Source of the DNA: a virus | IMG/VR virus record: IMGVR_UViG_3300036785_001389 | Span: 1 to 45,596 of that record | DNA: 45,596 nucleotides | Strand: one strand, 5' to 3' | Part shown: positions 24,956 to 41,999 of the stretch, one piece after another | Layout: each line of letters starts with the position of its first letter | Position numbering within the stretch: position 1 is the first letter of the stretch | Notes under the pieces: model-generated | Databases searched by the model: none | Told to the model about the DNA's origin: nothing | The model's input: only the letters and a program-made list of their open reading frames with translations | Position numbers and translations under genes: made by a program

Positions 24956-25092
24956 AACAACCTCGTCGTAGTTGCTCGTCAAGGAATCCGTGGCAGGCGG
25001 TGACGATTCCGCTTTTCGGGAGCTACCCTAGCCACAGATAGATTGTACATTATCAAAGCCACTCGATTGAATGGCTTTTGTAATGTGAGCGG

Positions 25093-36854: not shown

Positions 36855-36888
36855 AATTACTCCTGTGAATTGATCCAGTCATTCGCAC

Positions 36889-37170
36889 TTAGGCCTCGAA
36901 GCTGTTGACGCAGCTCGGGGCTTTTTCATTAGGTGCCAACACAGCAGCAACCCGCCGCGCTAGCTCCGCCATTTCGCTATCAGCAACCTCATAGTTCAGG
37001 ATTGCTAACGCCATGCTCATGGTCTCCAGCATTCCCGATTTCCACCGGCTTACCTGGGACTCATGTACGCCCATTGCATCAGCGAATTTGCGCTGACCCA
37101 TTACGGCGATCTTGTTCAGCAATGAGGAGTGAATCTTCATAGCTGTCTTGCGTGTGTTTGCAGTTTCCAT
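36889..37170 (-). CDS. cII: CII transcription activator
   Basis: 93 residues. ALxxxSxLLNKIAVMGQRKFADAMGVHESQVSRWKSG is close to lambda CII (SALLNKIAMLGTEKTAEAVG, VDKSQISRWK), with the LLNKIA and QVSRWK parts identical or nearly so, and the C-terminal tetramer region (MALAILNYEV, LARRVAAVL) also conserved. Activates PRE, whose TTGC-N6-TTGC site lies at its own start. AAGGAAG before the ATG. Confidence 0.93.
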   Translation of the reverse strand: METANTRKTAMKIHSSLLNKIAVMGQRKFADAMGVHESQVSRWKSGMLETMSMALAILNYEVADSEMAELARRVAAVLAPNEKAPSCVNSFEA

Positions 37171-37283: not shown

Positions 37284-37514
37284 TTATGCTGCTTCTTCCG
37301 GATGCGGGAAAAGCTGCGGCAAATCAGGGCGGATCTCGTGGGCCTTAACTTCACCGGAGGTAGCCAGAACAATGGCGCTTACGTTCTCTGGAGACACTCG
37401 CTTTTTGTTGTGAAGCCAGCACCAAACATTCGGCTGGCTAACTCCAACGCACTCAGCGAGCTTCTTTTGGCTACCAAGTAAAGAAATGGCCTTGTTAATA
37501 GCTTTGTTGACCAT
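37284..37514 (-). CDS. cro: Cro-like repressor (YdaS/DicC type)
   Basis: 76 residues. MVNKAINKAISLLGSQKKLA-ECVGVSQPNVWCWLHNKKRVSPE is the typical Cro/YdaS HTH (about 2-44), with VSPENVSAIVLATSGEVKAH and a Pro-rich end. First gene of the PR transcript. AAGGA before the ATG lies inside operator OR closest to cro. Expected to bind the OR and OL sites and favour lytic growth. Confidence 0.88.
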   Translation of the reverse strand: MVNKAINKAISLLGSQKKLAECVGVSQPNVWCWLHNKKRVSPENVSAIVLATSGEVKAHEIRPDLPQLFPHPEEAA

Positions 37515-37518
37515 GTTT

Positions 37519-37587
37519 TATATCCTTGGGTTTACTCACCAAGAATAATAACCCTGAGTCAACACAAAAGCAATACCCTAGGATATT
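37519..37587. promoter_or_regulatory. OR region with PR
   Basis: Three operator-like 16-mers: TATATCCTTGGGTTTA (37519-37534), AATAACCCTGAGTCAA (37547-37562), AATACCCTAGGATATT (37572-37587). They fit a consensus around ATACCCwwGGnTAT. PR on the minus strand: TTGCTT (37573-37568), 17 nt, TATTAT (37550-37545), so two operators cover it. PRM must lie here on the plus strand but I cannot fix its boxes. Confidence 0.75.
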
Positions 37588-37622
37588 TGACGATGCATAA
37601 CCACGGTTATATGTTCGAGACC

Positions 37623-38243
37623 ATGAACATAGATACCCTTTCAGAAAGATTAAAGTTAGCCATGGAGGAAGGCGGTTTTACGCAGGCGTCGCTTGCGGAA
37701 GCTGCCGGGATTGCTCAGCCTAGCGTTTGGAAAATAACTTCAGGAAAGACTCAAACATCCTCAAAGGTTGTTGAGCTTGCTACAGTTTTAGGCGTTAGGC
37801 CTGAATGGTTAGCCAAAGGAGTTGGTCCAATGCGCGAAGGAAAGCAGTCAGATCGAGATGGCCTCGCTGTTGACCCTGCTACCAAGCTGCCAGGTGTCTT
37901 TGTCGTTCCCTTCTGGGATGACGAGGTTAGGACTAATAATGTCGCCATCATCCCTGACACAGTAAAATCCGATCACTGCCGAGCATATAGGCTGCGGCAC
38001 GATAGCGGATATCCAGAAGTTCCTGAATCGTCTGTCATTGTGGTGGATACCCAGGAGCAACCCGGGAACAATGATTTTGTTTATGCCGCTGTAGGTAATT
38101 CTCATTCGGTTTATCGATTCATGCCCGGAGGCTCTGCAGGATATTTGATATCAAGCAATGAAAGACTCCCCGTCATACCCGTGGGTGATAACGCAAGTAT
38201 CATAGGTGTGGTGGTATACATTTCAAGAACGCTCAAACGATAA
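37623..38243 (+). CDS. cI: CI repressor with degenerate S24 domain
   Basis: 206 residues from ATG 37623. Upstream in-frame ATGs at 37593 and 37611 are alternatives and no ribosome site is strong. N-terminal HTH (FTQASLAEAAGIAQPSVWKI, about 19-38). C-terminal S24-like domain has the nucleophile in RHDSGYPEVP (Ser128) and VIVVDTQ after it. But the place of the catalytic lysine holds Tyr164 (SVYRFMPGG versus VKRL in LexA) and there is no lysine between 115 and 205. The expected Ala-Gly cleavage point is Pro90-Gly91 (LPGVF). Spacings 38 and 36 match active family members. RecA-stimulated self-cleavage therefore looks impossible. Confidence 0.9.
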   Translation: MNIDTLSERLKLAMEEGGFTQASLAEAAGIAQPSVWKITSGKTQTSSKVVELATVLGVRPEWLAKGVGPMREGKQSDRDGLAVDPATKLPGVFVVPFWDDEVRTNNVAIIPDTVKSDHCRAYRLRHDSGYPEVPESSVIVVDTQEQPGNNDFVYAAVGNSHSVYRFMPGGSAGYLISSNERLPVIPVGDNASIIGVVVYISRTLKR

Positions 38244-38329
38244 ACAGTTAACCTTTTCCCAAGGCCTCTATTTCTAATAGGGGCCTCTTCATACTTCCCT
38301 GGCCCCACCCTGATGAAAGTCGCAATCAT
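38111..38329 (-). CDS. possible LexA-controlled small protein antisense to the cI end
   Basis: 72-codon frame opening MIATFIRVGPGKYEEAPIRN, with GAGGTG 4 nt before ATG 38329, the best ribosome site of this otherwise empty interval. A near-perfect LexA box lies about 50 bp upstream in this direction. The last 44 codons run antisense to cI, and the hairpin at 38262-38286 lies inside it, both of which weaken the case. It would be well placed to encode an SOS-induced antirepressor. Not recognised. Confidence 0.35.
   Translation of the reverse strand: MIATFIRVGPGKYEEAPIRNRGLGKRLTVYRLSVLEMYTTTPMILALSPTGMTGSLSLLDIKYPAEPPGMNR
38262..38286 (+). terminator. hairpin after cI
   Basis: AGGCCTCTAT-ttcta-ATAGGGGCCT, near-perfect, 18 bp after the cI stop, but with only CTTC after it instead of a long T-run. 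Weak or factor-assisted terminator. Confidence 0.45.
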
Positions 38330-38376
38330 GCGACACCTCACATTAATTAATTGATATAGTTATATAATTTTTATAT

Positions 38377-38396
38377 TACTGTGTTTATATACAGTC
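38377..38396. promoter_or_regulatory. LexA (SOS) box
   Basis: TACTGTGTTTATATACAGTC: CTGT-N8-ACAG core complete, 17 of 20 positions agree with the enterobacterial consensus TACTG(TA)5CAGTA. It overlaps weak promoter sequences on both strands (TTACTG-17-TATACT on plus; TATAAT or TGTATA on minus). The region 38287-38504 has no confident gene and is very AT-rich. Confidence 0.75.
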
Positions 38397-38504
38397 ATTA
38401 TACTGTATACGTCACAAAGAAAAGATCAACCTTCCATTCAAATTATTTAGCTAATAGCTAAAGAATAGCCTAGGGAAATTTATTTTCCTTTGGCTATCAT
38501 CCAC

Positions 38505-38569
38505 ATATACCCAAACCATAAAAAATAATACCCCAAGACATTGCCAATCAATAACCATGGGTATAATAT
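38505..38569. promoter_or_regulatory. PL with OL operators
   Basis: Plus strand TTGCCA (38541-38546), 17 nt, TAATAT (38564-38569). Operator-like 16-mers: ATATACCCAAACCATA (38505-38520), AATACCCCAAGACATT (38527-38542), AATAACCATGGGTATA (38550-38565), same consensus as OR. Two of them cover the promoter boxes. Confidence 0.78.
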
Positions 38570-38614
38570 TCATCTCAACAGCAGGACGCTGAACCGCCAA
38601 AAGGACTCTGGCGC

Positions 38615-38658
38615 CGCTCTTTAACAATCATGGGAATTTCTCCTGCCAGTGTAGGAGA
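38615..38658 (+). promoter_or_regulatory. nutL: boxA and boxB
   Basis: boxA CGCTCTTTAACA (38615-38626), 12-nt spacer, then perfect 6-bp hairpin TCTCCT-GCCAGTGT-AGGAGA (38639-38658). Loop identical to nutR. Confidence 0.85.
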
Positions 38659-38666
38659 CCAAAGCT

Positions 38667-38842
38667 AAGTGGCTTTGGGGTGTGGTGGAACAGGAAATGG
38701 TTCGTAGGCATCGAACAGTTAATGAGTACGACTTCGAAGTCGCTCATAAGCAATGCGATGGTGCTGAGCCTGATCAACTTAGCGAAAAGACCAGCGGATT
38801 TTGTGGTTCGATTCCACATTCACCACACCACCAAAGCCACTT
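38667..38842 (+). ncRNA. large branched leader RNA between nutL and N
   Basis: 5' arm 38667-38690 (AAGTGGCTTTGG-GGTGTGGTGGAA) and 3' arm 38819-38842 are complementary over about 23 bp with two one-base bulges. Inside are four hairpins: 38700-38716 (GTTCG/CGAAC), 38722-38747 (ATGAG..CGACT/AGTCG.CTCAT), 38763-38783 (GCTGAG/CTTAGC), 38802-38818 (TGTGG-TTCGATT-CCACA, like a tRNA T-arm). The outer stem ends 4 nt before the N ribosome site GGAGG, as the RNase III hairpin of the lambda N leader does. Probably controls N translation. Confidence 0.65.
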
Positions 38843-38855
38843 ACTGGAGGTAGTT

Positions 38856-39113
38856 ATGACAACAATCATAGTTAAGCCAGCGAAAGAGAACAGCAAGACA
38901 CGTCGCTATCGCCAGCGTGGTGAAGTGATGGCTAAGCGCCGTGAAGATGCGGAGTTAGCGAAGAAGTTATGCAAAGCCTGGGCGAAGTTAACCCACGTTG
39001 AGTTACCGGTACAGAAAGCGATTTACAGCGGCGCGTGTTGTTTGCCAGAGGTGGCCATGTTCGCGGCCGGGTTCCGCAAAGGCCGCAAAGATGCAACGCA
39101 CATCATCAAGTGA
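38856..39113 (+). CDS. N: N-like early antiterminator
   Basis: 85 residues from ATG 38856 (GGAGGT 5 nt upstream). Arginine-rich RNA-binding motif near the start, ENSKTRRYRQRGEVMAKRRE, resembles P22 N (NAKTRRHERRRKLA) and phage 21 N (AKSRYKARRAELIAERR). The C-terminal LPEVAMFAAGFRKGRK matches LPGVALYAAGHRKSK of P22. First gene of the left operon, preceded by nutL and the structured leader. Binds boxB and modifies RNA polymerase with NusA. Confidence 0.88.
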   Translation: MTTIIVKPAKENSKTRRYRQRGEVMAKRREDAELAKKLCKAWAKLTHVELPVQKAIYSGACCLPEVAMFAAGFRKGRKDATHIIK

Positions 39114-41843: not shown

Positions 41844-41864
41844 TCAAATCACAAGGACTAAGCC

Positions 41865-41999
41865 ATGCAATATGCCGTTGCAGGGTGGCCTATTGCTGGC
41901 TGCCAGAACGAATCACTACTCGAAATTATCACTCGCCGGATGCGCGTTATCGGGCGTTGGTTGAAAGACACGTTAAATCAGCCGGGGAATCCTCTATGA
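41865..41999 (+). CDS. 44-residue small conserved protein
   Basis: Complete short frame starting MQYAVAGWPIAGCQNESLLE, ending LNQPGNPL. The AVAGWP, CxxESLLxxITR and LNQPG elements belong to a widespread small protein in enterobacterial lambdoid left operons. AAGGA 9 nt upstream. Its TGA overlaps the next start. Confidence 0.7.
   Translation: MQYAVAGWPIAGCQNESLLEIITRRMRVIGRWLKDTLNQPGNPL

Follow-up and report, generated by a model that had tools for sequence, protein, structure and literature searches.

The immunity region of the 45,596-nt viral sequence analysed here (the window) carries a LexA box between the repressor gene cI and the PL promoter, and between this box and cI we find the start of a 72-codon open reading frame (ORF) that runs on the opposite strand into the 3′ end of cI. 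We propose, and consider it probable, that LexA here represses a small antirepressor gene antisense to cI, and that induction by this route replaces the RecA-driven cleavage of CI. The proposal stands directly on the box, the ORF, selection on the protein it encodes, a −35-like element, the joint conservation and partly joint loss of box and ORF, and the restriction of the pair to CI of the non-cleavable type.

How would such a prophage answer DNA damage? In the lysogen, LexA bound to the box at 38377-38396 would shut a leftward promoter (TTGATC at 38429-38424, with its start in or next to the box). Upon DNA damage, RecA would trigger LexA self-cleavage, the leftward transcript would be made, and its translation from the ATG at 38329 would yield a small protein of ~72 residues. 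This protein would inactivate the phage's own CI, predicted to be incapable of self-cleavage, whereupon PL and PR would open and the prophage would be induced. As this gene lies opposite the last 133 nt of cI, the leftward transcript is likely to reduce CI production as well, through convergent transcription or antisense pairing; we regard such interference with the cI mRNA as probably incidental, though it may contribute. In this scheme we infer that LexA binds, where transcription starts, that the ORF is translated and, most of all, that CI is the target. The broader proposition, to which we give about an even chance, is that the gene represents an undescribed family of SOS antirepressors encoded opposite the repressor gene, in which the protein would inactivate CI and the transcript would interfere with cI, a recurrent arrangement that would replace self-cleavage. 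If this is true, one short locus holds a lock on one strand and its LexA-controlled key on the other, and there is a concrete, testable mechanism by which a sizeable group of lambdoid phages with degenerate, non-cleaving CI could respond to DNA damage.

The immunity region and its repressor

The region is organized as a lambdoid switch, with cII, cro, OR-like palindromes, cI, the LexA box, OL/PL, nutL boxA and boxB, and N. Its features are as follows.

36889..37170, minus strand: cII (PF05269, E 1e-30)
37284..37514, minus strand: cro-like gene of the YdaS/Cro type (family match)
37573..37610, unstranded: OR region with two CI/Cro operator-like palindromes, ATACCCTAGGATAT and ATAACCACGGTTAT (sequence)
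37623..38243, plus strand: cI, lysogeny repressor (Pfam HTH_3 and S24-like C-terminal domain; alignment with lambda, 434 and BTP1 CI)
38111..38329, minus strand: 72-codon ORF beginning MIATFIRVGPGKYEEAP, candidate SOS-induced antirepressor (comparison with CI relatives, codon test, frame conservation)
38334..38339, minus strand: Shine-Dalgarno sequence GAGGTG, 4 nt before the ATG of the ORF (sequence)
38377..38396, minus strand: palindromic LexA (SOS) box overlapping the start region of the predicted leftward promoter, kept 3′ of cI in relatives
38397..38407, minus strand: inferred −10 candidates, TACAGT (38407-38402) or TATAAT (38402-38397) (sequence and promoter scoring)
38424..38429, minus strand: TTGATC, −35-like hexamer of the predicted leftward promoter (hexamer conservation across lineages)
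38541..38570, plus strand: PL-like promoter TTGCCA-N17-TAATAT, with an OL-like palindrome, ATAACCATGGGTAT, at 38551
38615..38657, plus strand: nutL-like element with boxA CGCTCTTTAACA (38615) and a boxB hairpin (38640-38657) (sequence)
38856..39113, plus strand: N-like antitermination protein (PF25694, E 3e-9)

For cI, an alternative upstream start is possible at 37587.

The layout of cII, cro, OR, cI, OL, PL, nutL and N is the same as in phages of the lambda, 434 and P22 type, but the CI proteins of those phages are inactivated by RecA-stimulated self-cleavage, which is not predicted for that of the window. The window CI matches PF00717, yet in alignment with the lambda, 434 and P22-type repressors its Ala/Cys-Gly cleavage site is missing, and the catalytic Lys column holds Arg, as it does in many relatives. 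At the catalytic Ser column (Ser149), the window CI has Ser and 38 of 51 relatives have Thr. Lacking the site and the Lys, it falls outside the cleavable S24 repressors (LexA/lambda CI), and we predict from the alignment that it does not undergo RecA-dependent self-cleavage. The initial annotation had described this repressor as looking non-cleavable, and the missing Ala-Gly linker site and the Arg in place of the catalytic Lys bear that out.

The LexA box and the direction of its transcript

The sequence TACTGTGTTTATATACAGTC lies exactly at 38377-38396 and presents the CTGT-N8-ACAG core with three mismatches to the consensus TACTGTATATATATACAGTA. It is the sole site in the window with three or fewer mismatches, and 100 dinucleotide shuffles of the window contained none. 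The bare core occurs twice against 0.62 expected, which taken alone is weak evidence. Scored with a weight matrix based on 19 SOS boxes of E. coli, the site reaches 22.4 bits, where known boxes range from 13.2 to 25.7 bits, and it stands ten bits above the runner-up. As positive controls, the same matrix gives 26.7 bits for phage 186 tum, on the LexA site annotated in that record, 23.4 bits for the Gifsy-1 dinI box, and 21.2 bits for the single strong site in N15. By its sequence the box is real, and LexA binding is predicted; the initial annotation was correct both in giving it the full core with three of 20 positions deviating and in placing it between cI and PL, since cI lies on one side and the PL/OL/nutL/N region on the other. 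The runner-up, a weak LexA-like site of 12.4 bits at 36861-36880, lies between cII and an O-like gene.

In which direction would the LexA-controlled transcript run? In 14 of 20 lineages the leftward side has a TTGA[TC] hexamer at 22-42 nt upstream of the box, against a mean of 1.7 and a maximum of 7 in shuffles; the rightward side has it in none. With a sigma-70 −35 element so placed, LexA on the box would cover the start region of the leftward promoter. On the PL/N side, comparison of related lineages revealed neither a conserved ORF nor a conserved −35 hexamer. The direction left open in the initial annotation is thereby answered at the level of prediction: the conserved ORF and −35-like hexamer point leftward, toward the 3′ end of cI, and away from PL and N. 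The −35/−10 arrangement in the window is atypical; TTGATC is separated by 16 nt from TACAGT and by 21 nt from a perfect TATAAT, either of which may be the −10.

Two readings would deny the box this role. If the transcript instead ran rightward through PL into the N operon, SOS would start early lytic transcription upstream of CI-bound OL. PL does follow the box by ~150 nt in the window, and weak rightward hexamers are present (TTGATA near 38350), but the sequence from box to PL varies between lineages, and the rightward side has the conserved hexamer in 0/20 lineages and no conserved ORF, which leaves this reading very improbable. We also see scarcely any chance that the palindrome is a cI terminator hairpin or a fortuitous match and no LexA site. 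In one relative (L013, 5667-5700) a T-run follows the palindrome, which might there serve as the cI terminator as well, and some Xenorhabdus loci have a longer palindrome; a T-run is, however, absent from the window and most relatives, and what is conserved is the LexA core, with a high score in the matrix and variable flanks.

The antisense ORF and its conservation with the box

The ORF came to light in a comparison of 12 CI relatives, all of which have a LexA box 3′ of cI (12/12), and further lineages were brought in by ORF search and CI profile searches. The initial annotation had foreseen a LexA-repressed transcript but had missed the gene on its leftward side. In the window the ORF starts at 38329, 47 nt from the box, with 38244-38329 unique to it and 38111-38243 antisense to cI. 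Most relatives have G/A-rich ribosome sites at the place of its Shine-Dalgarno sequence. The N-terminal residues approximate the pattern [LFIMY]-x-R-[VTIG]-x-x-G-x-[YF] around a core motif RxxxGxY/F, and no aligned sequence departs from Arg7, Gly11 or Tyr13. An AlphaFold prediction for the ORF with 18 sequences (pLDDT 53) was of too low quality for use and yielded only a short, low-confidence N-terminal β-hairpin.

Is the ORF a gene? The distance from its start to the cI stop codon is 32, 74, 86 or 89 nt according to lineage, and as all of these are 2 mod 3, the indels kept the frame; likewise, the phase of the ORF relative to cI is identical wherever the ORF is present. For the part of the ORF outside cI, we took five lineage groups and counted the substitutions on their minimum spanning trees. 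In the ORF frame, omega (dN/dS) is ~0.54 (p=2e-6), and in the other two frames it is 1.15 and 1.16, so this part evolves as coding sequence in the ORF frame only. Groups B, C and D each reach significance on their own; group A, the window's own, and group E are not (p=0.17 and p=0.14, respectively). Within the overlap, the third codon positions of the ORF and cI coincide. The C-terminal half of the ORF is therefore largely dictated by CI, the conserved and independently informative part is the first ~28 codons, and a search for added synonymous constraint on cI in the overlap, which found none (p=0.59), is uninformative for the same reason.

The box and the ORF are tied to one type of repressor. 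We compared 51 distinct loci encoding CI with the C-terminal domain of the window type and 36 loci encoding CI of the cleavable type, calling a box at ≥13 bits within 320 nt 3′ of cI, a threshold reached in 54 of 4400 shuffled regions (1.2%). A box lies 54-133 nt past cI in 48/51 window-type loci against 2/36 of the cleavable type (p=3e-18). Since the loci share ancestry and hence are not independent, we also give the figures after clustering at 85% identity, which are 20/22 and 2/28 (p=1e-9). Nearly all of the 51 loci encode a minus-strand ORF with R-x-x-x-G-x-[YF] between the box and cI. Many of the 36 cleavable-type repressors have a related N-terminal domain, and the ORF is absent from phages in which that common N-terminal domain belongs to a cleavable CI. 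Across all loci, ORF and box tend to be retained or lost as a pair, with a box in 53 of the 54 loci that have the ORF and in 5 of the 13 that lack it (p=2e-6). Through this combination of box, ORF and tie to CI type, comparison strongly supports the idea, already put forward in the initial annotation, of SOS induction by a LexA-repressed transcript beside a non-cleavable CI. The family is spread over diverse temperate phages of enterobacteria and relatives such as Xenorhabdus.

A further 16 distinct loci, from Xenorhabdus, were fetched after the pattern had been described. All six with the ORF have a box (6/6), against 4/10 of those without the ORF motif (p=0.03); the four ORF-less loci that retain a box score ~15 bits, and the other six have none. 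A CI of the window type is present in 18 of 30 Xenorhabdus genomes, and comparison of the loci indicates that part of this lineage has lost the ORF-box pair, several members by visible decay.

Several individual loci deserve mention, some of them real exceptions to the pattern. In the Xenorhabdus prophages L065, L131, L132 and L195-L203, CI is intact and the ORF and/or the LexA box has decayed, in L198 apparently through a one-base deletion of the box to CTG-N9-CAG. A possible link to the Xenorhabdus xenorhabdicin (tailocin) region was dropped, as the loci inspected adjoin replication-type genes. L019/L086 retains an intact ORF and ribosome site with no recognisable LexA box (best 1.5 bits), and control of the ORF may have changed in that phage. 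Escherichia phage PhiR30_1 has a 20.9-bit LexA-like box 198 nt past a cleavable-type cI, inside an annotated CDS.

What, then, would the protein act upon? The case for CI is circumstantial, drawn from the strict tie of the gene to one CI domain type and from the precedent of the Gifsy prophages; as the overlap with cI would by itself keep both genes together, the association is no proof of this target. We allow a modest chance that the protein hits something else (RecA, LexA, the membrane in the manner of TisB, or host division) and that SOS induction of the phage depends on it only indirectly or does without it. Precedents for such roles exist among small phage or SOS proteins: TisB acts on the membrane, and GIL01 gp7 reportedly acts on LexA. 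Such a target sits poorly with a gene that occurs with a single type of CI C-terminal domain and is missing from phages in which the common N-terminal domain goes with a cleavable CI, a distribution expected of a protein that would replace CI cleavage, though the overlap alone also links the two genes. Alternatively, the leftward SOS transcript might act mainly as RNA, silencing the cI mRNA by convergent transcription or antisense pairing, with the ORF of little importance. In every relative such a transcript necessarily enters cI from its 3′ end, antisense to it, and the overlap is retained throughout. We nevertheless find this unlikely, as coding selection on the part preceding cI, Shine-Dalgarno sites and frame-keeping indels would all be needless for a mechanism of RNA alone, and halting new CI synthesis would leave existing CI in place.

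Related systems and further elements of the region

Small antirepressors under LexA control have precedents. In the Gifsy prophages of Salmonella, such proteins inactivate repressors that are not cleaved, leading to induction (PMC3121763). GfoA, GftA and GfhA of Gifsy-1/2/3 resemble the proposed ORF product in this (PMC3121763). The Gifsy LexA locus, however, lies outside the immunity region as a dinI-antirepressor-irsA operon (PMC3121763), whereas the window ORF is inside it, alone and antisense to cI. For Gifsy-1, the annotated repressor is a short HTH protein (411-nt gene), whereas the window CI retains an S24-like C-terminal domain. With neither similarity to the GfoA/GftA family nor its operon, the window gene stands apart from that family; an ORF profile found no significant similarity in the Gifsy-1 record (best match E=6, at an unrelated place). 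Similarly, in phage 186 a LexA box covers the promoter of tum, whose product is an antirepressor that blocks a non-cleavable CI. Tum has ~146 aa and a DinI-like half and is encoded far from cI, behind gene A, in contrast to 72 codons overlapping cI; the profile had no match in the phage 186 stretch, and with no Pfam match either, the ORF does not group with the Tum/DinI family. Likewise, the N15 antirepressor AntC has been placed in the SOS regulon, but the sole strong LexA box in the N15 stretch examined is far from the repressor gene cB, whereas the window box is beside cI, and the profile found no significant similarity in the N15 record.

As far as sequence alone can tell, the window thus shares with these systems a small phage gene whose promoter has a LexA box and a repressor that escapes RecA-dependent self-cleavage. 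The likeness to the 186 Tum, N15 and Gifsy antirepressors drawn in the initial annotation holds for regulatory logic and fails for sequence, no relationship to their SOS regions being found. In lambda, 434 and BTP1, the region 3′ of cI has no LexA box. Vibrio phages also have small orphan proteins, of the TF-smORF modules and Qtip, by which the phage's own CI is inactivated without proteolysis (PMC10432266, PMC11323111); unlike the window ORF, they answer to a phage transcription factor switch that is SOS-independent, are divergently transcribed, lack LexA control and are not reported antisense to cI.

Both the layout, a LexA-controlled gene antisense to a repressor gene, and the protein family appear to be new. 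A literature search, with limited coverage of subscription papers, returned no description of either. None of 18 ORF members matches Pfam, PHROGs or NCBIfam (0/18), and for the two named phages that have the ORF, Yersinia phage vB_YenM_21.09 and Flyfo siphovirus Tbat2_3, the records leave it unannotated. The family, which adds small proteins absent from the databases and annotations examined, was missed because its members are short and antisense to a known gene, and the opposite strand of other non-cleavable repressors is a place to seek hidden antirepressors. A tblastn search of phage records with the ORF gave a chance hit only, the E. coli complete genomes searched contained no match for the window locus or for a second locus (L107), and the CI of L033 as query retrieved no additional relatives.

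Finally, we note several RNA elements. The N leader (38668-38841) forms a very long hairpin (z −6.3). Its base is conserved (AGTGGCTTTGG...CCAAAGCCACT) and its top variable; in the window copy, a T-arm-like TTCGATT loop adjoins a CACCACACC strand. In L002 the top is entirely different and folds all the same (z −3.8); the lambda N leader has an RNase III hairpin that this one possibly resembles. A lambda cIII thermoregulator RNA (RF01804) is matched above gathering score at 41852-41906, and the int-alpA RNA family (RF02996) at 24974-25038 on the minus strand, in the other half of the phage.
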